A stretch of DNA of 42,112 nucleotides from Pascua guehoae. Taxonomy: Eukaryota > Basidiomycota > Tremellomycetes > Trichosporonales > Trichosporonaceae. The notes below the pieces were generated by a model. That model did no database searches. It was not told the DNA's origin and saw nothing but the letters and a program-made list of their open reading frames with translations. Positions 2,888 to 30,297 of the stretch are shown here, piece by piece; the stretch's first letter is position 1; each line of letters starts with the position of its first letter. The position numbers and the translations under genes are program-made. Where the stretch lies: the NCBI GenBank assembly GCA_001600415.1, contig BCJX01000003.1:2749231-2791342 (forward strand). The letters run 5' to 3'.

Positions 2888-2997
2888 ACAAANGAAACCC
2901 GGCAAACCGATCCAACGAAATGACTTACCTCACCCCGATCCTGTCGACGCTGTCGANATCGATAAACGAGGCCCGTCGGGACTTCGGCCCCTCTGTC

Positions 2998-3007
2998 AGG
3001 GGGGCAG
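2998..3007 (+). other. Polypurine tract of Gy1
   Basis: AGGGGGGCAG lies directly before the TGTCAC start of the 3' LTR. This is the expected position of the plus-strand primer. The same tract precedes the LTR of the second copy (30867-30876). The 110 bases between the pol stop and here show nothing else recognisable. Confidence 0.75.
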
Positions 3008-3625
3008 TGTCACGATCTGGACNACTTAGTCGTTTCTACGCGGTGTTGAAATCACATGACCGACAATCACGTGACGTCACGATCGCCACCCGCANGGTTC
3101 GGTTCGCCACTCGAGACAACAAGCGACAAGAAATCANGCACGTCGCCTTGACAGCACACAATACACGCTTCACGACGCCTTGCGAAGCACACACGCCGTA
3201 CTGTCGCCCGTGCATGTCGGCGCTACTACTAGAGGCTCTACCACCGACCCAGAGCGCCACGCTTGTAGACCAGGCCTAACTCCGTATCCCCCGCGCAGCT
3301 CCTGCTCGTACGCTCACTAGGGTACTTAGTTCAGCGCCGTCCGTAGTTTGTATCTCCAAGCCATGCAACTACAAGTCTAGTCTCGACAACCAGTTGCCTT
3401 GGCACTTGCTCCCTCCGACACCTCCGCGGCGCCACCTCCGTCTCCGCTCCGTCCTTCCGTCCTTCCACGTCCCCCTCCGCGTGCATGTCACAGCAACCCC
3501 CTGGCCCCGGCGCCTTCCTCTAGGTCGTCAATCCCGTGAGTCCGACGCCGTCTTGCAGGACGAGACGGAGTCGCGGTGCTAGGTTTGTGTTCGGTTCCCA
3601 AGCCTTCACCATTCAGCTTGTGACA
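3008..3625 (+). repeat. 3' LTR of Gy1, 618 bases
   Basis: It starts TGTCACGA and ends GTGACA, giving a perfect 6-base terminal inverted repeat. The copy at 30877-31494 has exactly the same length (618) and aligns throughout, which fixes both ends. The other copy has a clear TATA-like ggtatatag where this copy has ggtacttag (about 3320), so this LTR may be a weaker promoter. It contains three ambiguous bases (3023, 3095, 3137). Confidence 0.93.
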
Positions 3626-3703
3626 TCGGTGGTGCCGAGGCCCGAGAAACAGGTCAGATTTGTGGAAGAAGAAGGGCGGCTGAGAGACTCTAGTAGCTTC
3701 TGA
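3626..3703 (+). pseudogene. C-terminal remnant of A1 pol
   Basis: Only the last two dozen or so codons remain, ending at TGA 3701-3703. They match the end of A2 pol (stop at 21114-21116), including the shared ending RDSSSF. The rest was separated by the Gy1 insertion and lies outside the window. Bases 3704-3927 hold no gene I can support. Confidence 0.8.
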
Positions 3704-3927
3704 TCCGCCATAGGCTGAAGAGAAGGAGGCCAGTGCATGAGGAAGGGAATACAGGAGGCCCGTGCTACGGGGTCCGAGGACGGACCATTAAGAAATTGGG
3801 GAGAAAAGAGGAGTCGTGGACCAACAAGGGAAGAGACTCGACCGAGTCCGACAGAAGAGGGGAAAGAGATAAAAGGAGAAGAAAGAGACTTGAGAAAACG
3901 GACAGACACCCCACAAGTCCAGCTCGG

Positions 3928-4918
3928 ATGACGAACGACTGGAGCGCCCAGAACCCAGACCTTTCTGCCCTCACCATCCAATCGCCGACAGGGCAGCGCG
4001 CGACCATGACGGTGGAGAACCACAACCCGTTTGAGGGAGTTGGGTTTGAAGGAGAAGGCGTGAGTCCCAAAGACAACCAGAGGGAGAAAGGGGGTTGATA
4101 ATGGGAAGAATCAAAGCACGACCGACGTTCATATGAGCACAACGGAGCCGGCCACGGGTGCTACGATGGCAACCGCCAACCAGTCGCCGAGAGACGTTGA
4201 CGCGGTGGCGCACATCTTCTCACATGCCAACTCCGAGTCCAGCTGCCAACCGAGTGTCGCCGACAATGTGTCCAACGCCGGCACCAGCCACTCCGAGGCG
4301 GACAGCTTGCTGGGAGACTCGTTTTGGGGTGTGGCACAGAGAACGACAAGCTGCGGGTTCTGCGGAGAGGAGCATGACCTGTCCGGCTTCATGTTCGGCC
4401 TGCGGCGATTCCCTTGCATTGTTGTATGATGGATTGAGATGATTTGGGGCCAGGAGAGGTTCTTCTACGCTGAGAAGGGTGCATTCTGGTTCTACAACAG
4501 CCAGAAGCAGGAGATGATCCACCGATACGAAGAAGAGCTACCCGTGGTAGTGTGGATACGTTTTGAGCTGTACATGTGGGAAAACAAGTACCCATGCCTG
4601 CAAGGTCAGGCCAGTCGCCTCCTTGGGCACAACAACAAGCTCCACTCGGTCTTCAACACGAGCCCGACTCACAAAGTCCAAGACATCCTCCAACGTGCGG
4701 TCGCGACGCATAACGAGCTCAAGAATGTGTCCGAGGCCGAGCAGAAACGTATGGCGACCATGCTACTCTGCAAGGGCTGGAACGTGACACACCAGGTCCA
4801 CCGCATCCCGCACCTCACCCCGAATGGCAGGTTCTGTGCTAAACCCGAGCACCGCCTGGGGGTTGCTGGACCGTCCTCCGGATTTGCTCGTCATACGCCC
4901 AAGTATGTCCACAAGTAG
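3928..4918 (+). CDS. Plus-strand accessory gene of A1 with a probable intron and an in-frame TGA
   Basis: I do not recognise the family. The model is exon 1 at 3928-4059 (44 codons), a 49-base intron at 4060-4108 (GTGAGT to AAG), and exon 2 at 4109-4918 (270 codons including the stop). Both exons are phase 0. Exon 2 is interrupted by TGA at 4427-4429 and reads on in the same frame for 162 more codons. A2 has the same lengths, the same frame and the same TGA, inside a 214-base block with no difference between copies. The N-terminal half is Ser/Thr/Asn-rich and has a CGFC motif followed by FPC just before the TGA. The second half is mixed, aromatic and basic, and could be a separate 159-residue protein starting at 4439. 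The gene lies about 225 bases after the pol stop in the same orientation. No function is assigned. The intron is moderately supported; A2 has lost its donor. Confidence 0.55.
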
Positions 4919-5156
4919 TGGATAGTTGACGATGCAAAGGATCAGAAAAGGAGAGCACCAAGTGTCAAGGATGAAAAGGAGGCGGCGAGAGACGGGGACA
5001 GAGTCACGTGGCAGGCACGTGGAGGACAGAAACCAAGGGATCAAAGCGGCCCGAGACTCGGAAATGGATACTTGCAGTGCATAGGCAAGGGCAGTAGGTG
5101 ATACAGCATGAACAGATATGCAAAGTATGATACAACAGGAGGAAGTGAAGAGATGT
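4919..5156. other. Convergent intergenic spacer in A1
   Basis: These 238 bases lie between the stop of the plus-strand accessory gene and the stop of the minus-strand three-exon gene. It probably holds the 3' ends of both transcripts. I see no gene, and no poly(A) signal that I would defend. Confidence 0.5.
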
Positions 5157-7689
5157 TTACAAAGGGCGGCTATGACGATAGCCCGGGAGAGAGTCTTGGC
5201 CGAGCAGAGTGCTGGGGTGGGCCCAAGTGGAGCGCCCAGGGGCGGGCTGGTTGGTGGGAGGCTTGTTAGCCGGAGGTAGAGCAATTTGAGCCGCGGCGTT
5301 GCCCCCGGGAGGCGCGACAGGGGGTGCAGGTGACAACATGTACGATTTATGCTGGCGACATTTCTCAGCCTCTGCTTCAGCCTTAGCCTTGGTTGCCTCG
5401 GCCTCAGCTTTGGCAACCGCGGCCTTAGCGGCCTCAGCTTCTGCTTTAGCTACGGCCGCCTCCGCTTTGGCCTTGTCGGCCTCGGCCTCGGCCTTTGCCT
5501 TGGCATCAGCGTCGGCCTTGGCTTTGGCTTCAGCCTCAGCCTCGGCTTTAGCCTTGGCGTTGGCCTCGGCCTTGGCCTTGGCATTGGCCTCAGCTTTGGC
5601 TTTAGCGTCGGCTTCTTGTTGGTGGGCCACTGCAGCATTGAGCTCTCGAGCGAGGTTCGGAGGCAGGAGAGGGTGTGCAGCGGCGCAGAAACGGTGATGG
5701 GTAAACTCACGCCCTTCTTGGGCAAGGCTGTACGATGGGAGCATGATGGCCAAGTAAAGTGAGGCCACAGAGTCTGAGAAATCGAGAGGGCCGTTAGGCG
5801 AGGTGAGGGCCAGAACCGTGTCTTGGATCACAATCTCGGCCTCCTGTCCAGCTGGAAGCAACTGGCGCAGGCCCTCAAGGAGTGCGAGCCGGGTGCCGGA
5901 GTCGACAGCTTGGAGTCGAAGGATAAAGTTCGACAGGGCCGTAATCGGGTTGCTGATGTTCCCGGGTCCGAGCCTTTCATGCTTTTCCGTGAGGACATTG
6001 TAGAGGTCTAGCAGAGATTGAGCCGACCGCTGTGGCGGCTGTTGCTGGGGTTGGCTGGGCTGAACGGGGTCAGCTGGGTCGACTGGATGAGGAAAGAGGG
6101 CTTGAATGAAGGGGTCGTCACCTCCTATCTCTTCAATCGATGCAAGACCAAAGGCCTTGAGGATGTCTGCTGGCGGGTACAGCATGGATTTCATCATGGG
6201 CAGATGCACAAAACAGCCACCGTAATTGACCCAGTCCTTGACACCTCCCTCATTGATAACCGCGATAGCACGGTCACCCGAGGGGCCAGCACCCTTGATC
6301 GAATAAAGATGGGAGGATGCATTCGTGCCTTCCGAGTACGAGCTACTGACCAAAGTGAGGCCCGGACCGAGACCCGAGGTGGTGCCAGTGGCTGCGCCCT
6401 TGCTGGGCTGAAAGCCGGTCTTGGGTGTGGGACGGGGGGCGGGCTGGTTGGTGCCGGCAGCGGGCGTCTTAGTGGGGCCGGGAGTCGCAGCAGTGTGGCC
6501 CCCCGGGTGTGCGGCGGGGGCGGGGGGATCGAGAACCTGCCCGGGAAAGATCGCCGATCCGCCCTTAGCAGACCACCACTCCCGCTTGGAGGCACCCCAC
6601 ATTGGGCCCTCGACTGCCTCGAACCATTGATGGAGCTCGCGACGAGGAGTGGTGCGACCCTCCATGTGGTCATCGTTGTCGTCGTCGCCATCATCCCTCC
6701 CAGTCTTGTCAAGCTTCTCCGTAAAGCCAAAGTGGTCGGAGAAGAAATGACGCTCTCCCCCAAGCTCGACAATCTCAACATGTGGGCCGGGACCAGGCAG
6801 AGTCAGGGCAGGACGATAGGCGAAGGGCGGCGGGCCGAAACGATAAGTGTAGCCCTAGCTGGTACAGGGAGGAGCGCCAGGTGTCCAAGGCGGGAAGCGG
6901 GCGACATCGGCCCATGCAGCGAGCTCGTACGGGCAATCTTCGGGAGGGCGGGGGTAGGCTCGCCAGAGCAACGCCGGCACGAAACCGATGGTGGCAGCCT
7001 CGACAAACTGCATGTGATGGTCGATGAACTGGGCGTATGCTGGCACACTTGGGGAATCCCAGACACCCGCACCGGCACCCATCAACCGCGCCAAGATATC
7101 CGAGATCTCCGCGAGCATGGCCAACTTGTGCTCATTGTGGGAAGGCGTAAACGAGCAATCGTCTGGGCATTGGATGCAGTGATCCGGGTCAATCGCCTTG
7201 TTGAATGGGCAGCTGACTTTCTTGGACATGCACCTCCGACAACGCGACATGCCGGAGAGGAACTGGTAGCCCGGGAATGTTTCCTGATGGGGTCAATTCG
7301 AGGGTTGGGAGTAGGACGCCAGAGAAAGGATCCAGTGTACTGGAAAGGCAGGTGGGGACTAACCCGAAGTTTGGCATCTAGCTCTCCTGGTGTCATGTCT
7401 CCTTCCGGCAACCGAACTGCAGAGCCCTTGGGGCGACCCTTCCTCCTGACGTGCGTGTCACCCTAAGGAAAAGAACAGTCAGAACAGGATCAAGGCAAGG
7501 ATGAGAGAGGAGAGAAGAGTAGCTTACAGGCTTCGGGGCTGGAGCAGGGGCTGGAGCGGGGGCTGGAGCAGGAGCCAGACCTGGGGCCGGAGCTGGATTG
7601 GGCGGGTTGGCAGTGGCATTTCCGCCGCCTCGACCACCACCTCGGCCGGCTCCTCCTCGACCACCATGGCCACTTCGCTGAGGAGGCAT
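5157..7689 (-). CDS. Antisense three-exon gene: AT-hook, six-Cys cluster, Ala/Lys/Glu coiled coil (A1)
   Basis: The model is exon 1 at 7689-7528, intron 65 bases (GTAAGC to TTAG), exon 2 at 7462-7364, intron 80 bases (GTTAGT to TCAG), exon 3 at 7283-5157; all junctions are phase 0 and the total is 795 codons. Exon 1 is Gly/Arg then Pro/Ala-rich. Exon 2 carries an AT-hook-like RKGRPKG (residues about 61-67). Exon 3 has Cys at 102, 105, 112, 123, 126 and 130 (CX2CX6CX10CX2CX3C), resembling a fungal zinc cluster with a shortened last loop. There follow a Trp-rich middle, a Pro/Thr-rich linker and a helical Ala/Lys/Glu repeat (about residues 642-727). One in-frame TAG at 6855-6857 (codon 230) is absent from A2. 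The start was chosen because a pyrimidine-rich leader precedes it and A2 shares it. Function is unknown; I infer a nuclear DNA-binding protein. Confidence 0.72.
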
Positions 7690-7800
7690 GGTAGGGCAAA
7701 AAGAACGATTGGGAATGGAGTAAAAGGAGTGTGAGGGCGAACAGAAAGGAAGAGCGGGGAATGACAAGGAGAGTAACGGAGGGAAGTAGAGGGAGGCGAG
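7690..7800 (-). promoter_or_regulatory. CT-rich leader of the antisense three-exon gene
   Basis: On the minus strand the roughly 110 bases before ATG 7689 are strongly pyrimidine-rich with no clear TATA box. CT-rich tracts before the start codon are common in basidiomycete promoters. A2 shows the same character upstream of 24996. The rest of the spacer to 8630 is a 59-base duplication plus unremarkable sequence. Confidence 0.45.
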
Positions 7801-8044
7801 ACGGTGATGGGGGGCTGAGTAGGAGATGGAGAAGCAGGCCAGTCTTATGCTACGCGCAAGACGAGCGGGATGAGAAAGGAGGTAACATGTCGGATGGGAA
7901 ACAAACAAAGGGGCATGGGTGTGATGACAAACGAGTCGACAGAGCATGGTGAGGCTTGGTTGGGGCATGCTCAAATGTGTAACGAGGGGAGCAAGCGAGG
8001 GGTGCGATCAGGTCCCGAGGGACGTGGGACAATAAGGTGATCAT

Positions 8045-8162
8045 GATGGGATGGGTGAATGAGTGATCCACTAGCTGGGAGAGCAGTTCAGTGGAGTGAC
8101 GGTGATGGGATGGGTGAATGAGTGATCCACTAGCTGGGAGAGCAGTTCAGTGGAGTGACGGT
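8045..8162. repeat. 59-base tandem duplication in A1
   Basis: A 59-base unit beginning gatgggatggg is present twice in direct succession with almost no difference. A2 has a single, diverged counterpart near 25355-25415, so the duplication is recent and specific to A1. It lies in the spacer between the two antisense genes. Confidence 0.85.
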
Positions 8163-8630
8163 GATGGGCAGGTGAGGATCAGGAAGAGCAGGAGACAACC
8201 TAAGAAGAATGTTACAGGTCTCGTGCGATGATTGACAGGACTAAGGGGAAGCGGCTGTGGTGGGAGGTGAACTAGTGAGGCAGGGGGACGAGACTCTGGG
8301 CAGATCTGGTGTGGCGTGCGGGTCAATGCAAGTAAAGGGGGATACTCTGGGCATTGGGCCGCCCCCGACGTCATCCCTCTCCCCCTAAGCACCCCAACCT
8401 TCTGGTGGGTGTGGAACATGTGTCACCAGGTAGAGAAGAAAGGGGAGCTGCCGTCGAAGTGTGCAGAAGGGGGGACAAGGTACAGTATGCATGACAGGAT
8501 ACAGAGACGCATGCAACGAGAGAGAATAGAAGAGCCTATGGACAGGATCTGCGAAGAAGTGGAGAGAGGAAGTGGGGTACAGCTACTTCTGGCGCTTCGG
8601 GTCCCGGGGAGAAGGGTGCTCACCTCTGCC

Positions 8631-10219
8631 TCATTTTGTGTGGGTGGTGGGGCAAGGCCCGCGGAATTTGACCAGCAGGGGGACAGGCCAGGAGGGATTC
8701 TCGGCGCGCAGGACGGCGGATGGACGCTTGTAACTAGCCCACTCCCCTCCCTCTCGGTCCAGGTCTGCATCGCTGGTGGCGTGAAGGTCAAACCAGTCCT
8801 TCCCGTCCTCCCCAATGGTAAAGCATGGGCGGGGGACGTCGAGCTCAGCCAACTCGTGGGTATAAGAGGGGCCGTGGGCCAGGAAACGAGTGGCACGAAT
8901 GAGTTCGAGCCCAACGCCAAAGCGTGCATGGCCGTCTAGGCGGTGGGTAGCTGGGAATGTGTCCCGCAGGCGGGACCAGCCCACGACATGCGCCTTGCGG
9001 GGAGCTATGTTTGCACCATCGTAGAAAGAGCAACAAGTCCCGTGAGAGCCCTTACACTTCTTGCAGGTCGCATTTGGCTTGCTCTTGAGGACCCAATGCC
9101 TAAAGTTACCCTTGCGACAGGGAGGGCAGCCTTCAGCGAAGGGGAGCAGCTCGTACCCTGCACCTGCGTCCGCTTTCTAAGCTAATGAGCATTGGAAAAG
9201 GATTTAGGATGAACAAAGGGCTGTAGAGATGGGGTTATGGGACTCACATAGGGGTCAGTGGGGGGAACCATGATCCCCCTCAAGCTCTTGCAGAGCTCCT
9301 CGTGCTCCTCCCAGGAGAGGTCGCGCCAGCTCCGAGTCTCTCGCCCACTTCCCTCCTGCCCGGCTGGGGGACCGGCGGCGACATCATGAAGATGCCGCTT
9401 GGTGGGGGTGATGGGGAGCGTGGTGGGGAAAAGTGTGGACCCAATTGGCATGGGCGGAGGCATGACAATGGTATGGGAGTTTGGAAAAGGGCCCCGGAGG
9501 TAACCAGCCCAAGGCTCTACTGATGGCCATGCGGTAGATTCCCGAGCCAGCTGGGAGAGGACCTGTGAAGGTCAGAACCCGGGCTGGGGGAGTAGGAGAG
9601 CAGGCGGGCAGGATGCGACTCACGAGGGAGTCATTTGCGACTCTAGCCCAAGCTTTGAAGAACCTCATGGCAAGCGGAGGGAAACAATGGACCAAGCGAG
9701 TCGGAGGAGGATAAAGGAGGCGTGCGCGGTCGAAGATATGGTACCACATGTCCGCCTTCAGAGTCCTGAAGAAGGTGTCAGCCTGCGGTAGAGAAGAGAA
9801 GCTGGCCCAACTGACTCTGCATCGTCGCTGGTCGAGCGGGGGTACACGGTGGCCAGGGCTGGGAGAAGAAAGTGGTGCATCCACCACACCTCGTGCGAGA
9901 CCGCCGCCAAGAAGTGCTCCTTCGAGTCCGGGTCTCGGAGTTCGAGGACAAAGCTGGAACCGACAGCTGGCTGCTTGTATTCGGTCGACTGGCCTTCCAC
10001 CTCTGCACGAGAGGGTGCCTCCAGGAGCTTGTGCCACTCGATGGTCCGAGACATGTCCTCAGCCGGACTAAGTTTGCGGGCCAGGTCCCGAAAGAAGGCG
10101 GCGTTGACGGCATCGGGGCAGGGGTGAAGTAGCTCGGAGATGGCGTCCTTGCCGAGAACCTCTGTGTAACTGATAATGGAGGCAAGAGAGGGATGACTGG
10201 GGTTGATGTTGATGGACAT
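8631..10219 (-). CDS. Antisense four-exon gene with Zn2Cys6-like cluster (A1), intact
   Basis: The model is exons 10219-9848 (372 bases), 9782-9624 (159), 9562-9248 (315) and 9176-8631, with introns of 65, 61 and 71 bases. Donors are GTGTAC, GTGAGT and GTGAGT; acceptors are CGCAG, ACAG and TTAG; intron 2 has a CTGAC branch-like site. All junctions are phase 0 and the frame is open for 463 codons. In A2 exons 1-3 have exactly the same lengths while intron lengths are 64, 62 and 71. Exon 4 carries a CPPC motif at about residues 299-302, then His309 (Cys in A2), Cys320, Cys323 and Cys330/331. The A2 form is CX2CX6CX10CX2CX7C, within the usual range for fungal Zn2Cys6 domains, although here it is central rather than N-terminal. 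I recognise no other domain. I infer a DNA- or nucleic-acid-binding protein encoded antisense to the retroelement. Confidence 0.78.
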
Positions 10220-10340
10220 GGCGGGCTGGGAAGTGAATGATGATGTGTGCAAGGTGTTCAAGAGTGGGAAGAAGGGGCAGAGGGGGAAGAGCATGCATGA
10301 GAGACAAGAATGGGGAGATGCCCTCCTCTATGAAGAAAGG
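10220..10340 (-). promoter_or_regulatory. CT-rich leader of the antisense four-exon gene
   Basis: The minus strand upstream of ATG 10219 has long C/T runs (for example CTTCCCCCTCTGCCCCTTCT near 10280), also present in A2 upstream of 27453. A1 and A2 differ by indels here that break any upstream reading frame, which supports the start at 10219. No TATA box is obvious. I support no gene between 10340 and 11075. Confidence 0.45.
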
Positions 10341-10929
10341 TGGGCACGGTGTGGCTGGAGTAAAAGTAGGGGAGGCAGAACGTGTCAAAGGAGTGCACAA
10401 TGGGCGTGGCAATCGAGCACACTCGTATGACGGAGGCAGTGGCATAGAGGGCATGATGAAAGAGGGCGTAGAGTGTTGAGGGCACAACAAAAGGAGCCAA
10501 GAAAAGGGGATGGGATGACCCGCGTTCATGTGATAAAGTGGGAGAGAGGGAGGAACTGAGGTGATCGAGATAGCGGGTACTGGCCGAGGAGGGGAGGGGT
10601 GGTTGCGAGCAACGCCAAGCAGATGCTCTACCTTGAAGAGGAGACAGTGTGAGAGGAGACCCCAGGGTTAGTCAAGAGGGCGGTGGGACGGAAATGGGTG
10701 GCAACTACTGCTGCCAGGATGATGGTGGTGCCGGGCCTGTGCTGGCGCTTCTCCTCATTGCCTAGTGTCGCTGGTAACTGCGGAGGCTTCGGCCAGGATC
10801 GAGACTCAGGGCTCGCAAGGTAGGCACGGGGCCTTTGAGGGGTAGCTCTAGGAGGGGCACAGCCCTCCACTCCCGGGGTGGGGCCCGAGTCGGTATTATG
10901 CCCGGACTGGGTGACCCGTGCGCAGCGTT

Positions 10930-10954
10930 GATGGGGCGTTGGGCGTACCCCATC
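10930..10954. other. Conserved hairpin with paired substitutions (A1)
   Basis: GATGGGG (10930-10936) pairs with CCCCATC (10948-10954) around a GTTGGGC loop. In A2 the arms are GACAGGGT and ACCCTGTC (28147-28154, 28164-28171). Two base pairs have changed on both sides together (C-G to T-A and A-T to G-C). With only two copies this is suggestive, not proof, of a selected RNA or DNA structure. Confidence 0.45.
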
Positions 10955-11075
10955 GGGCCAGTTCCCACGACGAGGCGAAGGTGGTGGCGAAAGGACCGCG
11001 CGGGCGGCTACACGAGAGGGGGAGGGATAAGTGGAGTTGGGGGTGATGTGCGCAGGGCGGTGTTAGAGGAGGGAA

Positions 11076-11445
11076 GAAGGAAGGTCGTGTCGAGAGGTGG
11101 AGCGCGCCGACTGTCTGTGCTGGGAATGAAGGGCGGTCGCGTCGAGAGGTGGAGCACGCCAACTGTCTTTGCTGGGAATGAAGAGCGGTCGCGTTGAGAG
11201 GTGGAGCATGCCGACTGTCTGTGCTGGGAATGAAGAGCGGTCATGTCGAGAGGCGGAGCGTGCCGACTGTCTGTGCTGGGAGTAAAGAGTGGTCGCATCG
11301 AGAGGTGGAGCACACCGACTGTCTGTGCTGGGAATGAAGATTGGTCGCATCGAGAGGTGGAGCGCGCCGACTGTCTATGCTGAGAATGAAGATCGGTCAT
11401 GTCGGGAGGTGGAACCCGCCGACTGCCTGTGTTGGTACGAGGATC
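11076..11445. repeat. 52-base minisatellite, about 7 copies (A1)
   Basis: The unit contains the constant parts gagaggtggagc and gccgactgtctgtgctggga and repeats every 52 bases with scattered substitutions. Because 52 is not a multiple of 3, open frames across it on either strand are an artefact of repetition. A2 has about 5 copies at 28300-28560. The last unit in both copies is the most diverged. Confidence 0.9.
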
Positions 11446-11696
11446 GAGCGCGATTTGGGCCTAGTCTCTAAGGAGCGCGCTGCATGTCATCTTCCTGGTG
11501 GAGGATTGACCATGCCAGGGGGTTGGAAATGGATGCCGATTCTGCATAGACCTCCGAGAAGGTGTGGGATGATGAAGAAGGCTATGGGGGGAGTAAGGTG
11601 GAAGGAAGTGGGGAGAAAGGAAAAGAGGAAGGAAGGATATGAGGAGCATTGGAAGGTGGGGCCATGGGAGGTGTGAATCAGGCACGCGGCGAGAAG

Positions 11697-11820
11697 CAAG
11701 CCATGTATGGCAGACGCGCATCGAGAGTCTAGTTGTGTAGGACAGACGCGCACCTAGGTTCTAGCCATGTAGGACAGATGCGCGCCTAGACTCTAGCCAT
11801 GTAGGACAGATGCGTGTCTG
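11697..11820. repeat. 32-base minisatellite, about 4 copies (A1)
   Basis: The unit starts ctagccatgtaggacaga and ends in cacctagact, with a 32-base period. A2 carries about 11 copies of the same family at 28811-29165. The block between 11446 and 11696 is purine-rich single-copy sequence without a supported gene. Confidence 0.88.
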
Positions 11821-11879
11821 GAGCTGGGCTAGGAGGGTAGGGGGTACCGGGAATCGAGCTACGAAGGATGGGTGGCAGT

Positions 11880-12090
11880 GGGCCGTGAATCTGAACAAGC
11901 GGGACCAAAAATAGTTGAGGCCTGGAGGACGAGCGGTGAATCTGAGCAAGCGGGAACAAAACAGCCGAGCCACAGAAGATGGACCGAGAGTCGAGGCGGC
12001 GGGATCGAAAGAAATCGAGCCACCAGGTTGGATCACAGAAGATAGAACGAGAATCGGGGTGGCGGGAGTGGGAGAGTTGAGCTACCGAGA
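11880..12090. repeat. Degenerate ~60-base repeat, 3-4 copies (A1)
   Basis: Units share the pieces gtgaatctgagcaagcggga, gagccacagaag and gagagtcgaggcggc, with irregular spacing near 60 bases. The equivalent block in A2 is 29215-29500. From 12090 to 12540 the sequence is single-copy between A1 and A2 and shows no supported gene. Confidence 0.7.
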
Positions 12091-12544
12091 AAGATCAAAG
12101 AGCGGGAGGTTGGCCAGGAAGGGGGCGCAAGTGACTGGTTGCAGAATACGATCGAGACTAGGGGTGAGGCAGAGTCAAGCCACAGGACACCCCCAGCAGG
12201 GGAGTGTAAGGACGTCCGAGCGCTGGCGGATGAGATGAGGGAGGGAGCAGCAAAAGTCCAGGGCAGACCGAGACTCAGAGCTTCCTCATGCTTAACCGCC
12301 AGGTCGGGGGACCGACCCACTAGAGCGTGGGGGATCCTGTGGTGGGAATAACTCGCCCACCAGGAATCGATGACGTATCTGCCAGAGACTCATGCCAAAC
12401 ATGATAGCCGACCTAACCGAGGTTTGGGTTGCGGAGCAAGACTCAGAGACACCCATTCACCGAGACACGAGCGAGAGGCGGAGAGAGAAACGAGGCCGAG
12501 ACGGACAGAGGCCCGGAGACACATGACACCAAGACTTGCGCGTG

Positions 12545-12954
12545 ACTGGCACTGAGACTCGAGCCAGTCACGGACCGAGACTCAAGCCAGTTGCGGACCA
12601 AGACCCAAGCCAGTCGCAGACCGGGACTCGAGCCTGGGGCGGACTGAGACTCGAGCCAGCAGCGGACCGAGACTCGAGCCTGGGGCAGACCGAGACTCGA
12701 GCCAGCAGCGGGCAGAGACTCGAGCAAGATCGACACCGAGACTCGAGCCAGCAGGGGACCGAGACTCGAGCCTGGGGCGGACCGAGACTCGAGCCAGCAG
12801 GGGACCGAGACTCGAGCCTGGGGCGGACCAAGACTCGAGCCAGCAGCAGACTGAGACTCGAGCCAGCAGCGGACCGAGACTCTAGCCCGTGGCGGACAGA
12901 GACTCGAGCCAGTGACGGATCAGGACCCAAGCCAGCAATGGGCCGAGACCCGGG
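12545..12954. repeat. 23-base minisatellite, about 18 copies (A1)
   Basis: The core gagactcgagcc alternates with agcagcggacc or tggggcggacc, giving a period of about 23 bases. It is the last A1 sequence before the join to element B. A2 has about 10 copies at 29935-30160 followed by 130 bases of other sequence, so A1 is truncated inside the array. Confidence 0.88.
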
Positions 12955-12957
12955 TGG

Positions 12958-16003: not shown

Positions 16004-16059
16004 TGGTCCACCAACACCTTGAACGACCCCTTGGCCTACACAAATTATATCATCAAAAT

Positions 16060-16310: not shown

Positions 16311-16351
16311 TTCATTTCAAACACTACTAGGTCATTCTGTCCTTCGTGCAC

Positions 16352-17395: not shown

Positions 17396-17445
17396 CGTGC
17401 GTGCGAGAACAAGTCGAAGGGGCCTCGCACACACAGACAGCCTCT

Positions 17446-17453
17446 TATAAATC
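17446..17453 (-). promoter_or_regulatory. TATA box of the B antisense gene
   Basis: On the minus strand ATTTATAA lies about 52 bases before ATG 17395, a plausible position for a promoter driving the antisense gene from inside the retroelement. No other TATA-like site is this well placed. The region 17460-17800 is otherwise without a supported gene. Confidence 0.5.
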
Positions 17454-19108: not shown

Positions 19109-21116
19109 CCCCATAGCACACCAGTACATTCCCAGTCCAGGTGTGCACCCATCCACGACAAGTACCCACCCATAGTGGTGATAGACACCAGCATCACGGG
19201 ATGCGGGGTAGAACTAGCACAAATGGGCGAAGATGGGAAGCGATACCCGGCCTGGTTCTACAGCATGTACTACAACACTGTGCAGCAGGGCTACAGCCAA
19301 CCGAAGTTGGAGCTGTATGGGATCTACGTCGGGATGAGGGCGGTCCACCACTATATGCACAACACTAGATTCATTCTCGAGTCAGACTGCATGTCTATCA
19401 AGCAGATGATCAACTCTCCGATCTTGCCGAGCACAGCAGAGGCTAGGTGGTGTTGGTACATCAAGCTTAATGACTTCTTTAAGCATGTGCCAGGAGAGAG
19501 GCACAGAATCGCAAACGGTTTGTCGCGCAGGCCAAAGGCTGAAGATGACAGTGACGACACGGATCCCGAGGAGTGGCTGGATGCCTACTGTGAGGCTATT
19601 GACGGAGGGCGCAAGTCTTGCGCAGCACAAGTTGAAGCTCTGGATGACATCCCGTTCCAGGCGGAGCTGTACAAGGATGACGATGACTGGGTGGTGGTCA
19701 GCATGTTTTTGGAAGGCAAGGGCTGGCTGGCCGACGCGAGTCAGAGCAAGGTCAAGCGGCTGCAGCTAATGGCCAAGTACTGTCACTGTCATCTGGAGCA
19801 GGGCAAGTTGTGGAGAAGGAAAGGGTATCGGCTCCCCATGGAGGTGGTAGTGGATAAGGCCCAGCAAGAATCGATTCTCAATCTCTGTCATGAACAGGCT
19901 GGACACAAGGGCACGCAGTACACCTACTTCAAAGTTGCCGAGAGGTTCTACTGGCAAGGCATGAGTGCAGCGTGTAAGGAATGGACGAAGAGCTGCCCCG
20001 ACTGCCAGGCGCGACTATCAATTCTATGAGAATCCGCGCACTAGTATCCTCGTGCCAGTGCTGTTTGGGAAAGTAAGCATTGATTGCATCACGATGGGTG
20101 TGGACAATGGTGAAGGGGTGGATGGCAGAATGTACGTTATTGTGCTGGCACGTGATGATTTGACCGGATGGGTCGAAGGGTGGGTGCTGCCAGATGGAAA
20201 GGCCAAGACTATCACCCAGTTCTTCTATGAGGATATACTGGCTAGGTTCGGGCTGGTAGGCCAGGTCAGTATGGACTGAGGCTCTGAATTCAGAGGTGAA
20301 TTCGAGGCATTGCTCCGAGTGTGGGGTGTATGGTACATTCGGATGTCGGCCCACAACCCGGCAGCAAATGGTGGCATTGAGGCAACAGGCCGATCAAAGA
20401 GCTGCTCTTCAAGCTCGCTCGATCACGGCTGCCCAACTGGAGGTGGCTGCTGCCTCTCGCCTTGTGGGCGGACAGGACGACGGCCAAGCATACCACCGGC
20501 TATACTCCCCATTTTCCCTTGTATGGTGAAGAGTGTCGATGTGCAGTATGAGACATACATGACAGGTCACTGGCGGGACAACATGACCATGGCTGAGCTT
20601 CTTGAAGCACGCCTTAGGCAGCTTGAACAGCACCCAGAGGATGTGGCACTCGTGGCTTTATGAGCCAGAGAAGCAAGGAGAGAAACTGTGCTGCGGCACA
20701 ATGAGGATTTCGAGGGTCGCCACCATGACAGGGAGTTCAAGTTGGGTGACTTGATCCTGGTGCGGAACTCAACCCAGGACAACTCTCAGAGGGCCAAGCA
20801 GTTGGACCGATACCTCAGGCTGTACAAGATCCTGAAGTTTGGAAAGAAAGGATCTGTTAGGCTTCAGGAGCTCGATGGCACGGCCATCAAGGATGCAGGG
20901 CGGGGTAGCGTTGGCCACAATAGGCTGCGAAGGTTCTACACTAGAAGGCGGGACAACCAGGGAGGCGACACAGAGGAGCCCTGGGCGGCCGGCAGGCCAG
21001 AAATGAAGGTTATTCCCCTGTCCACAGGAAATACCCAGTCGATAGTGCCGAGGCCTGAAAAGAGGGTCAGGTTTGTGGATGAGGAAGGGCGGCCGAGAGA
21101 CTCTAGTAGCTTCTGA
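19109..21116 (+). pseudogene. A2 pol: RNase H and integrase
   Basis: The frame is open from the LTR D junction. RNase H begins VVIDTSITGCG and includes QPKLELYGIYVG, FILESDC and HVPGERHRIANGLSRRP. The integrase zinc region has HEQAGHKG and CPDC (about 19890-20010). A frameshift near 20012 leads to the catalytic core: Asp in VSIDCITM, Asp in VSMD followed by TGA 20277-20279, and Glu in NGGIEATGRS. Two further compensating shifts lie near 20398 and 20520, and another TGA at 20661-20663. The end has EFKLGDLILVRNS and a basic tail stopping at 21114-21116. Stops fit CGA to TGA. Non-functional. Confidence 0.85.
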
Positions 21117-21340: not shown

Positions 21341-22331
21341 ATGACGAATGACTGGAGTGCCCAGAACCCAGACCTTTCTGCCCTCACCATCCAATCGCCG
21401 ACAGGACAGCATGTGACCATGGCGGTGAAGAACCACAACCCGTTTGAGGGAGTTGGGTTTGAAGGCGAAGGCATGAGTTCCAAAGGCAATTGGCGGGAGA
21501 AAGGGGGTTGATGATGGGAAGAATCAAAGCATGACCGACGTGCATATGAGCACAACGGAGCCGACCACAGGTGCTACGATGGCAACCGCCAACCAGTCGC
21601 TGAGAGACGGTGACGCGATGGTGCACATCTTCTCACACGCCAACTCCGAGTCCAGCTTCCAACCGAGCATTGCCGACAACGTGTCCCATGCTGGCACCAG
21701 CCACTCCGAGGTGGACAGCTCGCTGGGAGACTCGTTTTGGGGTGTGGCGCAGAGAACGACAAGCTGCGGGTTCTGCGGAGAGGAGCATGACCTGTCCGGC
21801 TTCATGTTCGGCCTGCGGCGATTCCCTTGCATTGTTGTATGATGGATTGAGATGATTTGGGGCCAGGAGAGGTTCTTCTACGCTGAGAAGGGTGCATTCT
21901 GGTTCTACAACAGCCAGAAGCAGGAGATGATCCACCGATACGAAGAAGAGCTACCCGTGGTAGCGTGGATACGTTTCGAGCTGTACATGTGGGAAAACAA
22001 GTACCCATGCCTGCAAGGTCAGGCCAGCCACCTCCTCAGGCACAACAACAAGCTCCACTTGGTCCTCAACACGAGCCCAACTCACAAGGTCCAAGACATC
22101 CTCCGATGTGCGGTCGCGATGCATAACGAGCTCAAGTATGTGTCCGAGGCTGAGCAGAAACGTATGGCGACCATGCTGCTCTGCAAGGGTTGGAACGTGA
22201 CGCACCAGGTCCACTGCATCCCGCACCTCACCCTGAATGGCAGGTTCTGTGCCAAGCCTGAGCATCGCTTGGGGGGTGCAGGACCGTCCTCTGGATTTGT
22301 TCATTGTACGCCCAAATATGTCCGCAAATAG
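21341..22331 (+). pseudogene. Plus-strand accessory gene of A2
   Basis: This is the counterpart of 3928-4918 with identical exon and intron lengths: exon 1 at 21341-21472, intron region at 21473-21521 (49 bases), exon 2 at 21522-22331 with the shared in-frame TGA at 21840-21842. The intron donor reads ATGAGT instead of GTGAGT, a G to A change that would abolish normal splicing. Otherwise the frame is as long as in A1. The 214 bases 21750-21963 are identical to A1 4337-4550 although flanks differ at nearly one base in ten. Function unknown. Confidence 0.55.
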
Positions 22332-22569: not shown

Positions 22570-24996
22570 TTACAAAGGACAGCTGCAACGATAGCCCAGA
22601 AGAGAGTCTTGGCCAAGCAGAGTGCTGGGGTGCGCCCGAGTGGAGCGAGTGGATGTACGCCCAGGAGCGGGCTGGTTGGCTGGAGGCTGGTTAGCCTGAG
22701 GGGGAGCAACTTGGGCTGCGGCATTGTTCCCAGAGGGTGCGGCAGGGGGCGCGGTGGGAGGNGCAGGCGACAACGTGGACGATTTATGTTGGCAGTGCTT
22801 CTCGGCCTCAGCTTTAGCTTTGGTAGCTTCAGCCTCAGCCTTGGCAGCCGCAGCCTTAGTGGCCTCAGCCTCGGCTTTAGCTTTGACAGCCTCCGTTTTA
22901 GCCTTCATGATCTTGGCCTCGGCTTTGGCCTTGGCATCAGCCTTGGCTTTGGCTTTGGTGTCGGCCTCAGCTTTGGCCTTAGCTTCGGCCTCCTCTTGAT
23001 GGGCCAGTAGAGCGTTGAGCTCTAGGGCAAGAGCCTCGGGCAAGAGAGGGTGCCCAGTGGCACAAAAACGGTGGTGGACCCAATCACCCCCTTCTCGAGG
23101 AAGGTTGTACGTAGGCAGCATAATGGCCGAGTAGAATGTGGCCACGGAGTCCAAAAAGTCGAGAGGACCGTTAGGTGACGTGAGGGCCAAAACCGTGTCT
23201 CGGACCATAAGCTCTGCCTCTCCTCCAGCAGCAAGTTGTTGGCATAGATCCTCTAGGAGGGCGAGCCGGGAGCCGGAGTCGACGGCTTGGAGCCGAAGGA
23301 TAAAGTTCGACAGAGCCAGGGTCGAGTTGCCAGGATGCCCGGCTCTGAGCCGGCAGCACTTCTCCGCAAGGGCAGAATAAAGGTCCAGCAGAGCTTGCAC
23401 TGAATGCCGTGGCTGGGGGTTGGGCTGAACGGGGTCAGCTGGGTCGACTGGACAAGGAAAAAGGGCTTGAATGGAGGGGTCGTCACCTCCTATCTCTTCC
23501 ATCGATGCAAGGCCAAAGGCCTTGAGAATGTCTGCAGGCAGGTACGGTGTAGATGTCATCATGGGAAGATGCACGAAACAGCCACTGTAATTGACACAGT
23601 ATTTGACACCACCCTCATTGATAACCGTGATGGCACGGTCACCTGAGGGGCCAGCACCCTTTATCAAATAAAGATGGGAGGATGCATTCATGCCTTCCGA
23701 GTACGAGCTACTGACCAAAGTGAGGCCTGGACTGAGACCCAAGGTGGCACCAGCGGCTGCGCCCTTGCTGGGCTGAAAACCAGTTTTGGGTGCAGGACGA
23801 GGAGCGGGCTGGTTGGTGCTGGCAGCAGGCGTTTTAGTGGGGCCGGGAGTCGCAGCAGTGTGGCCCCCCGGGTGCGCGGCCCGGGCAGGTTCTCGTGAAC
23901 CTGCCCGGGAAAGATCGCCAATCCGCCCTTAGCAGACCACCAGTCCGGCTCAAACCCGCTCCACATCGGCCCTTCAATGGCCTCGAACCAGTCATGGAGC
24001 TTGCGGCGCAGGGTCTTGCAATCCTCCATAGGGTCATCGCCATTGTTGCCGTCGTCGCCCTTCTTCTTCTTGTTGGGCTCCTCAGAGAAGCCGAAGTGGT
24101 CAGAGAAGAAAGGGCACTCTCCTCCCAACTCGACGATCTCAACATTGGCGCCATTATGAGGGACGGTTAGGGCCGGGCGGTAGGCGAAAGGTGGGGGGCC
24201 AAAGCGGTAGGTGTAGCCATGGGCCGTGAGGGGAGGGGCGCCGGGTATCCAAGGCGGGAAACGCGCAACGTCGGCCCACATCAACAACTCATATGGGCAG
24301 TCGTCTGGAGGAAGGGGGTATGCCTGCCAGACCAGCGCAGGTGGGAAGCCGATGGTTGCCACCTCAACAAACCACATGTCATGATCGATAAACTGGGCAT
24401 ACACCGGTGCACTCGGCGAATCCCACACACCCGCGCTGGCTCCCATCATACGGGCCAAGATGTCTGAGATCTCGGCAAGTACAGCGAGCTCATGCTCGTT
24501 GTTGGAAGGGGAGAACGAACATTCATCCAGGCATTGGACACAGTGAGCAGGGTCGATGGCCTCGTTGAACAGGCAGCTGGCCTTCTTCGACACACACCGG
24601 TGACAACGCGACATGCCAGTGAGAAACTGGTGGCCCTTGAAAGTCACCTGACAAAGGTTAATCATCAAAAGAAGGGACAAAAAGGGGAGAGAGAGTAGAT
24701 TCCATGTGATATGAGGGGAGGTAGACTAACCCGAAGTGCAGCGTCCAACTCCTCCAGCATCATGTTCTCCTCGGGCAACCACACTGCTGAACCCTTGGGT
24801 CGACCCTTCCGCTTGACATGCATGTCTCCCTAGAAGAAAAGAATGGTCAGGATCGGGACTAGAGCGAGAGCAAAGAGGGGAAGAGAGAGTAGCTCACAGG
24901 CTTGGGAGCCAGAGCTGGGGCCGGGGGCAGGTTGGGCTGGGGAGCTGCGGCGTTGCCGCCTCCTCGACCGCCCCTGTTGCGTCACTGGGGAGGCAT
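22570..24996 (-). pseudogene. Antisense three-exon gene of A2 (AT-hook, six-Cys cluster, coiled coil)
   Basis: Exons are 24996-24898, 24829-24731 and 24647-22570, with introns of 68 and 83 bases (65 and 80 in A1). Exon 1 is 21 codons shorter than in A1 and has a TGA as codon 5 (24982-24984; CGA in A1). Exon 2 keeps KRKGRPKGS, the AT-hook-like core. Exon 3 keeps all six Cys of the cluster and lacks the A1 TAG. It carries a one-base frameshift where a 13-base inverted repeat has appeared (23880-23909). The Ala/Lys/Glu repeat is shorter than in A1. One ambiguous base is at 22762. The two copies together allow the ancestral gene structure to be read, though neither is intact. Confidence 0.7.
23880..23909. 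repeat. Perfect 13-base inverted repeat in A2
   Basis: CCCGGGCAGGTTC, loop TCGT, then GAACCTGCCCGGG. In A1 only the right-hand arm (as read on the plus strand) is present and the left side is unrelated C/G-rich sequence one base longer. The inverted copy appears to have been templated from its neighbour and shifts the frame of the antisense gene. Confidence 0.9.
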
Positions 24997-25818: not shown

Positions 25819-27453
25819 TTACTGCCAGTGCTTTGGGTCGTGAGGGGAGGGGAGCTCGCCGCCACCCCGCTTTGAGTGACTGGAGGGGCAGGGCCCACGG
25901 AACAGGAGGGGCAGAGGGACAGGCCAGGGGGGATTCTTCGAGTCAAGGACGGCAGTCGGGCGCTCGAGGCTAGCCCATTCACCTGCCTGCCGATCCAAAC
26001 CTGCATCGCAGGCCTCCTGGGTGTCAAACCAGTCCTTCCCATCCTCCCCAATGGTAAAACGCGGGCGGGGGACGTCAAGCCTGGCTGTCTCGTGTATATG
26101 AGCGGCCGCGGGCCAGGAAACGGGTAGCCCGGATGAGTTTGAGCCCGACTCTGAAGCGCATGCGGCCACCCATGTGGTACATGGTCGGGAAAATGTCCCG
26201 GAGATGGGACCAGCCCGCGATATGCACCTTGTGAGGGGCAATGTTCGCCCCATCGTAAAAGGAGCATCGAGTCCCATGAGAATTCTTGCACTTCTTACAG
26301 GTGGCGTTCGGTTTACTGTTGAGCACCCAACACCTAAAGTTGCCCTTGCGACAAGGTGGGCAGCCTTCAGAGAAAGGGAGCATGATGAAGCCCTCACCAC
26401 CGTTTCCGTTCTTTACGAATAAGCATTGAAAGAAGCATCAAGGATGAAAGGAGGACTGGATGAGGGAATTGTGACACTCACGTAGGGATCTGTGGGGGTG
26501 CCCGAGAGCCCCATTGACCTATTGACGAGCTCTTCATGTTCCTCCTCGGTGAGGTCAACCTAGCTCCGGGTGTCCCGCTCATCCTCCTCCTGCCCAATGG
26601 GAGGACCTGCCGCCGCATCGCGGAGACGCCGTTTGGTGGGGGTGCGGGGCAGGAAAGTGGGCAGAGCAGGGGACCTGGGTGGTGTGCGTGGAGGCGTGAC
26701 GATGGTACGGGAGTTTGGAAAAGGGCCCGGAAGGTAACCAGCCCAAGGTTCCACCGACGGCCATGCACTTGATTCCCGAGCCAGCTGGGAGAGGACCTGC
26801 GAAGGATCAGAACCTGGGGTAGAGAAGTGGGAGAGCAGGCGGGCAGGATGCGATGCACGAGAGAGTCATTTGCGACTCTAGCCCGAGTTTCAAAGAACTG
26901 CATGGCAAGCGGGGGGAAACAGTGGACCAAACGAGTTGGGGGAGGATAAAGGAGGCGTGCGCCGTCCAAGATATGGTACCACATGTCTGCCTTTAGAGTC
27001 CTGAAGAAGGTGTTAGCCTGCGGCAGAGAAGAAAGCTGGCCCAACTGACTCTGCATCGTCGCTGGTCGAGCAGGGATACACGGCAGCTAGGGCGGGGAAA
27101 AGGAAGTGGTGCATCCACCAAGCCTCATGCGAGACTGCTGCCAGGAAATGCTCCTTCGAGTCTGGGTCTCAGAGCTCGAGCACGAAGCTGGAACCGATGG
27201 CCGGCTGTTTGTACTCAAGTGACTGAATCTCGGCATCCGCATGAGAGGACGGCTTGAGCAGCTCGCGCCAGTCAACGGTTCGAGACATGCCCTCCACTGG
27301 GTCAAGCTTGTGGGCCAGGTCCAGGAAGAAGGTGGCGTTAATGGCATCGGGGCAGGGGCGGAGTAGCTTGGAGATGGTGTCCTTGCCGAGGCTCTCAGTG
27401 TAACCGATAATGGAAGCAAGGGAGGGATGACTGAGGTTGATGTTGATGGACAT
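25819..27453 (-). pseudogene. Antisense four-exon gene with Zn2Cys6-like cluster (A2), broken
   Basis: Exons are 27453-27082 (372 bases), 27017-26859 (159), 26796-26482 (315) and 26410-25819; introns are 64, 62 and 71 bases. The first three exons match A1 in length exactly. Lesions: TGA at 27169-27171 (CGA in A1), TAG at 26560-26562 (TGG in A1), donor of intron 2 changed to GTGCAT, and a two-base loss near 26085. The six Cys of the cluster are all present here with spacing CX2CX6CX10CX2CX7C (near 26280-26375), including the third Cys that is His in A1, so this copy preserves the ancestral motif. The reading continues about 19 codons past the A1 stop. Confidence 0.75.
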
Positions 27454-28299
27454 GATGGGCTGGGGGTGAATGATGGTGCGTGTGGGGTGTTCAAGAGCGA
27501 AAAAAAGGGCAGAGGGAGGAGAGCATGCATGAGAGACAAGAGCGGGGAGATGTCCTCCCCTATGTAGAGAGGCGGGTACAGTGTGACCGGGGAAAGAGCA
27601 GGGGGAGGCAGAACGTGTTAGAGGGGCACACAATAGGCGTGGCAATTGAGCACACTTGTATGACAGAGGCAGTGGCGTAGAGGGTGTGATGAAAGAGGGC
27701 GTAGAGTGTCGAGGGCACGACAAAAGGAGCTGAAAAAGGGGATGGGATGACTCGCGTTTGTGATAAGAGAGAGAGGGAGGGGAACTGAGGCGATCGAGTT
27801 AGTGGGTACTGGCCAGGAAGGGCTACAGCACTGAGCGGATGCTCTACCTTGAAGAGGAGACGGTGTGAGAAGAGGCCCCAGGCTTAGCCAAGAGGGCTGT
27901 GGGACAGAAGTAGGCGGCGACTACCACTGCCAGGACGATCCTGGTGCTGGGCTAGTGCTGGCACTTCTCCTCATTGCCTAGAGTTGCAGGTAGCTGCGAA
28001 GGCTCTGACTAGGATCGAGGCTCGGAGCTCGCAAGGTAGGCGCGGGGCCTTTGAGGGGTAGTGCTAGGATGAGCGCCGCCCTCCACTCTCCCGAATGGGG
28101 CCCGAGTCGGGTTTATGCCAGGACTGGGCGACCCGCACGCAGTGCCGACAGGGTGTTGGGCATACCCTGTCAGGCTAGTTTCACAACGGGGCAAAGGTGG
28201 TGGCGAGAGGACTGCGCAGACGGCTAACAGAGAGAGAGAGGGATAAGTAGAGTTGGGGGGTAACGCGTGCAGGCCGGTGTAGGAGGAGGGAGGAAGAGG
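27454..28299. other. Upstream region of the A2 four-exon gene
   Basis: It aligns with A1 10220-11075. CT-rich minus-strand leader near 27460-27560, then single-copy GC-rich sequence with the conserved hairpin at 28147-28171. No gene is supported. Confidence 0.45.
28144..28175. other. Conserved hairpin with paired substitutions (A2)
   Basis: GACAGGGT (28147-28154) pairs with ACCCTGTC (28164-28171) around a 9-base loop; an outer GCC/GGC pair (28144-28146, 28173-28175) extends the stem past one unpaired A. It is the counterpart of A1 10930-10954, with two compensating base-pair changes. Confidence 0.45.
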
Positions 28300-29500: not shown

Positions 29501-29934
29501 AGGGATGGGAGGTTGGTCAGGAGGGGGCGTGAGCGACTGGCTGGAATAGAATACGATTGAGACTAGGGGTGAGGCAGAGCGAAGCCACAGGACAGCTCCA
29601 GCAGGGGAGTGTATGGACGTCCGAATGCCAGCGGTCGGGATAAGGAAGCAAGCAGCAAAAAGTCCAGGGCGGACCGAGACTCGGAGCTTCCTAATACTTA
29701 ACCACTGGGGTGGGGGACCTACCCACTAGAGCTTGGGGGATCCTGTGGTGGGAATAACTCGCCCACTGGGAATCGATGACGTACCTGCCAGAGACTCGTG
29801 CCAAACATGATAGCCGACCTAACCGAGGTTTGGGTTGCGGAGCGAGACTTGGTGTCACCCATTCACCGAGACATGAGCGAGAAACGGAGCGAGAAATGAG
29901 GCTGAGACAGACAGAGGCCTGGAGACACACGACA

Positions 29935-30160
29935 CCGAGACTCGAGCATGACCGACACTGAGACTCGAGCCAGTCTTGGACCGAGACTCGAACCAGTCAC
30001 GGACCGAGACTCAAGCCAGTCGCGGACTGAGACTCGAGCCAGCAGCAGACCGAGACCCGAGCCAGCAGCAGACTGAGACCTGAGCCAGTAGCGGACTGAG
30101 ATTTGAGCCAGCAACAGGTCGAGACCTGAGCCAGCAACGGGTCGAGACCCGGACCGACAA
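29935..30160. repeat. 23-base minisatellite, about 10 copies (A2)
   Basis: Units around gagactcgagccagcagc, with later units drifting to gagacctgagcc. It is followed by about 130 bases of single-copy sequence before the Gy2 junction; this is the furthest-right sequence of element A in the window. Confidence 0.85.
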
Positions 30161-30297
30161 CAGGCCGAGATTCTGGGACGGGGAGACAGACACCCTAGCA
30201 GGGAGGAGAGTGAGACCCTGCCCAGTGGGCGACGGTAGTGAGTAACTGACAGAGCAAGGCCCTACACTCGAGGGCGAGGCAAAACTACCACAGTGTA

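Follow-up and report, generated by a model that had tools for sequence, protein, structure and literature searches.

Why would a retrotransposon carry spliced protein genes on its antisense strand, and do such genes serve the element or merely travel in it? The locus that raises this question lies in the terminal 42,112 bases of the 2,791,342-base contig C3 of the basidiomycete Pascua guehoae, whose assembly comprises 33.6 Mb in 28 contigs; this stretch, hereafter the window, is made up of retroelements nested in one another. Two of them are copies of element A, a Ty3/gypsy-type long terminal repeat (LTR) retrotransposon of ~19.3 kb, which carries on its minus strand, between pol and the 3′ LTR, a three-exon gene (p3) and a four-exon gene (p4), each with a six-cysteine cluster. 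By comparing these copies with the other members of the same family (family A) and with two sister families, termed C4b (contig C4, 545-566 kb) and C20, we found that p3/p4 form an old module that purifying selection has maintained. We hold this anatomy, with its selected protein genes, to be almost certain, and p3 and p4 appear to function as part of the element instead of riding along in it. What their products do is a question on which our answer is necessarily more guarded.

Copy 1 of element A enters the window with its 3′ part only (3626..12950, plus strand), which comprises the end of pol, a sense open reading frame (ORF-X), p3, p4, tandem repeats and the start of the 3′ LTR, and which is repeated at 21039-30113 and in copies on contigs C4, C6, C10 and C26. 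Within it, p4 runs on the minus strand from 10219 to 8631 and encodes 468 amino acids (aa) in four exons (9816..10219, 9624..9765, 9248..9562 and 8631..9176), separated by GT-AG introns of 50, 61 and 71 nt. The four-exon structure and GT-AG introns of the original prediction, made from the letters of this stretch alone, are thereby upheld, and its length of 463 codons is corrected. A 29-nt version of intron 1 was dropped in favour of the 50-nt one, because the donor place, the phase and a branch-like CTGAC/CTAAC of the latter fit the other copies and the C20 family when compared by eye. The cysteine cluster, CX2CX6CX10CX2CX7C, lies in exon 4; its third cysteine is replaced by histidine in copy 1 and retained in the other six rows aligned, and copy 1 has an extra cysteine next to the last one.

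The p3 gene extends on the minus strand from 7689 downwards, with introns of 65 and 80 nt. Exon 1 (7528..7689) is RGG-like and rich in alanine and proline, exon 2 (7364..7462) contains the basic stretch RRKGRPKGS (7447-7424), which is AT-hook-like by eye, and exon 3 (6855..7283 up to the premature stop of copy 1) contains the cluster CX2CX6CX10CX2CX3C, which starts near 7241. In copy 1, the protein ends after 229 aa at a premature TAG (6857-6855), and the exon-3 frame continues past this stop over 5157..6854, including an Ala/Lys/Glu repeat. The frame is open across both parts in the C26 copy (733 aa) and the C6b copy (730 aa), lengths that include ~25 codons of the intron in front. Thus, the exons and introns proposed earlier for p3 hold, and the open stretch 5157-6854 falls, in copy 1, downstream of the stop.

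The association of both genes with element A is tight. In the genome, we obtained 14 matches to p4 at 11 loci, 13 matches to p3 at eight loci plus one on contig C18, 15 matches to ORF-X and 24 matches to a piece of pol, 14 of which cover at least 250 aa. The order pol(+), ORF-X(+), p3(-), p4(-) is retained at all eight family-A p4 loci, and 10 of the 11 p4 loci stand in order with pol, ORF-X and p3 of their own family. The eleventh (C16:38625), a fragment with no pol of its own in view, falls within the same cluster of repeats and adjoins a sequence that we read as family-A gag. Of the 14 pol loci that cover at least 250 aa, 10 carry p3/p4: eight of family A and those of C20 and C4b. In the C20 family, pol (478712, +) is followed by ORF-X (481256, +), p3 (482445-482879, -) and p4 (485360, -); in C4b, the same genes follow one another at 545206 (+), 560472 (+), near 564 kb (-) and 565915 (-), with a gap of 14 kb between pol and ORF-X. 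The sister families share with family A 67-71% identity in pol, 40-53% in ORF-X, 38-44% in the cluster region of p3 and only ~28-30% in p4; the cluster cysteines and their spacing are nevertheless kept across all three families.

Purifying selection is evident at the codon level. When 28 copy pairs were pooled, omega (dN/dS) was 0.26 over the 468 codons of p4 and 0.14 over 750 codons of pol, and it was 0.21-0.22 for p3 exon 3 in eight copies; because decaying copies are included, these values are pulled towards 1. As a control, all six frames were compared in eight-copy alignments of four stretches. In the annotated frames, omega was 0.22 for p4 exon 1, 0.21 for p4 exon 4, 0.21 for p3 exon 3 and 0.27 for ORF-X, with 0.1, 0.1, 0.5 and 1.5 stops per copy, respectively. 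The mirror frame, which shares third positions on the other strand, also gave a low omega (0.26-0.30 overall, 0.26-0.28 for p3/p4), with 2.1-18.4 stops per copy, and the remaining four frames ranged over 1.06-1.56 for p3/p4 and 0.61-1.26 for ORF-X. A low omega and few stops thus coincide in the annotated frames only. Together with the gene order kept in copies and sister families, this marks p3/p4 as an ancient component of the element that selection has retained.

The introns conform to the same picture. Five intron places are common to the aligned copies, the introns themselves carrying small indels, and the introns of C20 p4 match family-A introns 1 and 3 in place and phase (by eye), with one further intron. 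ORF-X, on the sense strand, is without an intron in all three families. Such a distribution, with introns in antisense and none in sense, is what one would see if reverse transcription acted on sense RNA alone: introns of p3/p4 would survive because an antisense intron has no splice signal in the RNA that is reverse transcribed. This argument, already put forward in the original prediction, fits the antisense introns in eight copies and the C20 family, and the locus offers a natural example of a retroelement that keeps introns on its antisense strand and has an intron-free ORF-X on its sense strand.

The element itself is well delimited. Its pol carries reverse transcriptase-RNaseH-integrase features, with RT_RNaseH and Integrase_H2C2 found by Pfam in copy 2 (19156..21116, plus strand; DNA identity of 85-91% to other copies), where the 5′ part is missing and the frame is broken. 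When searched against a predicted-protein collection, pol of the C26 copy gave 538 matches among 7991 scored candidates, the best of those listed having RVT_1, RNaseH, H2C2 and rve domains; seven metagenome proteins (P0001-P0007), encoded on contigs of up to 18.3 kb, are 61-65% identical to it, and the viral contigs scanned with the best of these pol relatives contained no match. No Chromo match was obtained in the C-terminus of pol (20664-21116) at E values up to 0.1 in a Pfam scan that recovered the domain in the positive control (gypsy B, 1073-2887, see below). Element A is hence without a detectable chromodomain and does not qualify as a chromovirus by the integrase C-terminal chromodomain.

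The 3′ LTR starts with TGTGGTGGGAATAAC at 12338 in copy 1, where it is truncated and holds 23-bp tandem repeats (12338..12950, plus strand), and at 29744 in copy 2, where it measures 549 bp and has TG...CA ends (29744..30292, plus strand); the region between pol and the 3′ LTR spans 8.6 kb in copy 2. Both LTRs (TG..CA) are present in two copies of ~19.3 kb each, C6b (~97.3-77.9 kb) and C10b (~48.1-28.7 kb), the former flanked by a 4-bp target duplication, GCGT, and the latter by flanks that agree in three of four bases. The primer site adjoins the LTR, and its complement GCCCCATAATGGGCT occurs at 57 genomic sites versus none for a control, ~13 of which lie beside element LTRs (by-eye comparison), the remainder being dispersed. 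At the one site tested with Rfam, on contig C4, GCCCCATAATGGGCT stands at the 3′ end of a tRNA with an intron (52.1 bits), which ARAGORN with introns called Glu and whose loop we read as Lys-CTT; ARAGORN without introns reported no tRNA at either of two GCCCCATAATGGGCT sites.

Element A is also rich in tandem repeats. Arrays of 52-bp (11071..11526) and 32-bp (11610..11809) units lie between p4 and the 3′ LTR, recur in C6b and C10b and, for the 32-bp units, comprise more units in copy 2 (28728-29151). In addition, the LTR holds 23-bp arrays and the leader 42-bp arrays, both of which contain the 12-mer CCGAGACTCGAG. The LTR pairs of the C6 and C10 copies are 93.9% and 93.7% identical; transitions account for 25 of 30 and 27 of 33 differences, and CpG context for 18 of 30 and 21 of 33. 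Given this identity and the predominance of CpG transitions, these copies are not very young and have probably been methylated at CpG by the host.

Considering that DNA-binding-type proteins are encoded next to repeat arrays, which suggests element-coded factors recognizing element-coded repeats, we lean, by a little, towards p3 and p4 being nuclear DNA-binding proteins that act on the tandem repeats of the element, as regulators or anti-silencing factors. Here, leftward transcription of p3 and p4 would start at promoters on their respective sides, that of p4 lying in the 52-bp/32-bp repeat region between p4 and the 3′ LTR, and their transcripts would be spliced by the host. The products may then enter the nucleus and bind element DNA, most plausibly the repeats of the LTR (23-bp), the leader (42-bp) and the 3′ flank, and this binding could keep the element transcribable despite host silencing. 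That p3 and p4 are nuclear DNA-binding regulators of their own element appears to us an evenly balanced proposition. A specifically anti-silencing role, for which CpG-type decay would give a reason, is doubtful, as is the fullest version of the scheme, a self-regulation or anti-silencing system in which the spliced zinc-cluster pair, encoded opposite the genomic RNA of the element, would recognize the element's iterons (the 23-bp LTR units and flanking arrays), co-diverge with them and be convergent with plant Retand and VANDAL elements.

Fungal Zn2Cys6 domains follow the consensus CX2CX6CX5-12CX2CX6-8C. The p4 spacing of X2, X6, X10 and X2, followed by X6 in C20 or X7 in family A and C4b, lies within it, and resembles the fungal Zn2Cys6 transcription factors (PF00172) in the form CX2CX6CX10CX2CX6-7C. 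The p3 cluster deviates in its short last loop (X3-5). Both proteins further differ from these factors in scoring below the Pfam cut-off, in being encoded by a retroelement and in lying antisense. The profiles of p3 and p4 align with each other across the cluster, with an hhalign E value of 0.0015 and a probability of only 16.5%.

A number of observations weigh against a nuclear DNA-binding role exerted by intact proteins. The Zn_clus profile (PF00172) scored 18.1-18.2 bits for C20/C16-type p4, versus a gathering score of 21, and matched neither the family-A p4 nor the p3 pieces scanned, and none of the 77 Zn_clus matches listed for the genome lies at a p3/p4 locus; overall, Pfam returned only sub-threshold matches for the p3 and p4 pieces. 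Searches with profiles against Protein Data Bank (PDB) sequences ranked LEU3 third for p4 (E 0.7), behind two unrelated proteins, and GAL4 (E 0.58) for p3 below a succinate dehydrogenase match (E 0.0059); because unrelated proteins outscore LEU3 and GAL4, these matches give no significant support. Pfam found no AT_hook in p3 exon 2 alone or in the p3 N-terminus, so that of the AT-hook claimed in the original prediction only a GRP core seen by eye is left; a simple pattern revealed no basic run resembling a nuclear localization signal in p4, and a single-sequence structure model of p4 exon 4 (pLDDT 36.5) was uninformative. With the Pfam cut-off unreached and the PDB matches insignificant, we call p3 and p4 'Zn2Cys6-like' rather than members of the family: of the zinc clusters predicted earlier, the six-cysteine clusters stand, the name Zn2Cys6 is backed only marginally, and the profile search of both proteins then proposed has yielded no more than weak leanings towards Zn_clus, LEU3 and GAL4. 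The enrichment of CCGAGACTCGAG, with 107 genomic sites versus eight for the reversed control, was dropped as a sign of binding, since it is trivial for a 12-mer repeated in the LTRs. Many copies are, moreover, decaying: the frame of p3 exon 3 is interrupted by a stop in four of eight copies (frame-shifts and insertions uncounted), and the p4 exons of the w2, C10a and C10b copies are hit by 1- or 2-nt gaps. Finally, no p3/p4 match is seen at four pol loci out of 14 (C26:88618, C16:34806, C12:435325 and C4:587644); at C26:88618, the only one of the four where the surroundings of pol were inspected, the match ends inside ORF-X, and C4:587644 retains ORF-X.

The best surviving alternative, although rather unlikely, is that p3 and p4 are accessory proteins of another kind, such as RNA-binding export, packaging or Gag-partner factors comparable to retroviral Rev or Vif, whose zinc clusters would contact RNA or protein. 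The RGG-like exon 1 of p3, the unreached Zn_clus threshold and a CxxC motif noticed by eye in ORF-X as well speak for it, whereas the p4 spacing, which fits Zn2Cys6 in all three families, and the leanings of p4 to LEU3 and p3 to GAL4, weak and below unrelated matches as they are, point away from it.

It is unlikely, too, that p3 and p4 serve integration targeting by anchoring the integration complex at heterochromatin or centromeres in place of a pol chromodomain. Such a function would accord with the lack of a Chromo match in pol of element A, whereas the nested gypsy B has one, and with the matches to element pol and LTR, which mostly form one cluster per contig, several of them at contig ends where the assembly stopped. 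An unrelated copia and other gypsies occupy the same clusters, however, and a tether specific to the element is therefore not required to explain the clustering; packaging with integrase would also be less direct for antisense products, which do not arise from the gag-pol RNA.

Very unlikely is an incidental capture, by which one element would have acquired genes of the host, or a mobile cassette of separate origin, and carried them along ever since. The pol loci that lack p3/p4 are compatible with it, and an old capture is possible as the origin, no homologue outside elements having been found that would name a donor. Among the predicted proteins searched, p4 (468 aa) had no homologue in 7995 candidates scored and p3 (C26 frame, residues 30-480) none in 7998, which is weak evidence of absence, given that the collection holds predicted proteins only, introns split p3 and p4, a length filter applied and scoring was confined to the candidates with most words in common; the pol search described above, with its 538 matches and seven proteins at 61-65%, served as the positive control. 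Against capture stands the occurrence of p3/p4 in three diverged families, at 10 of 14 pol loci, in the same order and on the same strands. All 11 p4 loci lie in repeat clusters, and the sole p3 match elsewhere, on C18, is a chance match to low-complexity sequence ahead of a gene read as ribonucleotide-reductase. The original prediction would have taken the capture for incidental had most gene copies lain outside retroelements; its assignment of the antisense genes to the element agrees with the 10 of 11 p4 loci in ordered elements and with all family-A p4 loci in the ordered module.

Most improbable, and disfavoured by the selection test, is that the antisense RNA is the functional product, exerting dsRNA/siRNA control with the ORFs as by-products: retroelement antisense transcripts can feed siRNA (PMC7264820), yet a low omega with few stops is confined to the protein frames, the four other frames of p3/p4 reach 1.06-1.56, and the cysteines are invariant in families only ~30% identical.

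Among the closest known counterparts of element A are plant elements. Gypsy elements of the plant Retand lineage have a long region between pol and the 3′ LTR with antisense ORFs that encode a probable DNA-binding domain (TRP28), and about half of the elements carry tandem repeats there (PMC11963269). Element A shares all three traits, and differs in its fungal host, in having two intron-bearing genes with cysteine clusters as well as the sense ORF-X, and in repeats that also occupy the LTR and leader; TRP28 (PF04195) had no Pfam match in the p3/p4 pieces scanned. In maize, Grande carries gene23, antisense between pol and the 3′ LTR as in element A, which reportedly has its own promoter and a nuclear product; it is a single plant gene, and the passage that describes it mentions no zinc cluster (PMC7264820). 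A fungal gypsy, Boty/BcGypsy1 of Botrytis cinerea, likewise has an antisense gene, brtn, between pol and the 3′ LTR (PMC7264820, PMC8365987). Unlike element A, Boty carries only one antisense gene, and brtn is compared here by its description only.

VANDAL elements are DNA transposons. Their VANC proteins in Arabidopsis bind a short motif in tandem repeats and induce the loss of silent marks (PMC5735166, PMC10398659). The analogy with our interpretation of p3/p4, as element-coded DNA-binding proteins with tandem-repeated motifs in noncoding parts, is functional only, and it is for VANC alone that removal of silent marks has been shown. HBZ of HTLV-1 is a spliced antisense regulatory gene of an animal retrovirus and encodes a bZIP protein; it is like p3/p4 in being an antisense, spliced gene of an LTR element, and unlike them in its protein class and in its host. 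It is mentioned in PMC11963269.

In the open-access literature searched, outside which most subscription papers lie, no fungal pair of intron-bearing antisense genes with zinc clusters was described. The original prediction was likewise aware of no such pair in fungi; a single fungal antisense gene, brtn, is already on record (PMC7264820, PMC8365987). What is new is the spliced antisense pair with Zn2Cys6-like clusters in a Retand-like layout in a fungus; antisense accessory genes as such were known from plants and Boty. According to PMC7264820 and PMC11963269, it is unknown what the antisense accessory genes in LTR elements do. Element A adds to them a fungal example in which two proteins are under selection and bear zinc clusters, and in which introns have been kept over deep divergence, and because candidate target repeats lie in the same element, the question of role is directly testable by in vitro binding. 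Its layout repeats that of plant Retand, apparently independently, which hints at a general strategy.

The remaining gene of the module, ORF-X (4133..4918, plus strand), was aligned in eight copies, is represented by relatives in C20 and C4b and gave no Pfam match above the cut-off. It sits between pol and the antisense genes, where retroviruses have env, and is conserved in three families. In copy 1, it is interrupted by an in-frame TGA near 4427-4429, and copy 2 also has a stop. A spliced ORF-X, suspected from these two window copies, was rejected, as the frame reads straight through in other copies, including those of C26 and C4b; the C20 copy has one in-frame stop. The p4 exons also carry larger gaps among copies, with an internal duplication of p4 exon 4 in C10b, an insertion in the same exon in C4 and an insertion at the p4 start in C26.

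The nesting of elements in the window bears on one further point. Positions 1-3625 are the end of another gypsy, gypsy B (RVT_1, RNaseH, H2C2 and Chromo, the latter with E 3.2e-9 in a Pfam scan), nested in element A copy 1, and its 3′ end is seen again within 30285-31494, at 31341-31494. Because gypsy B ends at 3625 and element A resumes at 3626, the pol at 1-2887, downstream of which the antisense genes had been placed as genes of element A, is that of the inserted gypsy; pol of copy 1 itself lies upstream of the window (C3:2740372-2741244). On its right side, copy 1 meets another gypsy near 12950.

The second copy of the module occupies 21039-30292, with ORF-X at 21546..22331 (plus strand; its second half is the ORF 21843-22331), the p3 region at 22570..24926 (minus strand; exon-3 pieces 22570-23928 and 23688-24725 in different frames) and a p4 region with a broken frame at 25819..27480 (minus strand). 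The third gypsy, within 12950-18412 (pol ~12950-16000), truncates the 3′ LTR of copy 1 and has an LTR at ~17828-18412 that reads, by eye, TGTTACG...CGTAACA. A copia element and a partial second copy of it are located at 35242-41526.

Across the genome, gypsy and copia elements pile up at the end of C3, on C4 (520-640 kb), C6 (0-120 kb) and C10 (0-48 kb), and further on C12 (434-494 kb), C16 (0-52 kb), C20 (472-522 kb) and C26. These pile-ups mostly occur once per contig, several at contig ends, with two on C16 and C11 and some matches elsewhere; we infer that they are candidate centromeres. The copia family of the window is also present in the clusters on C3, C4, C6, C12, C16, C20 and C26.

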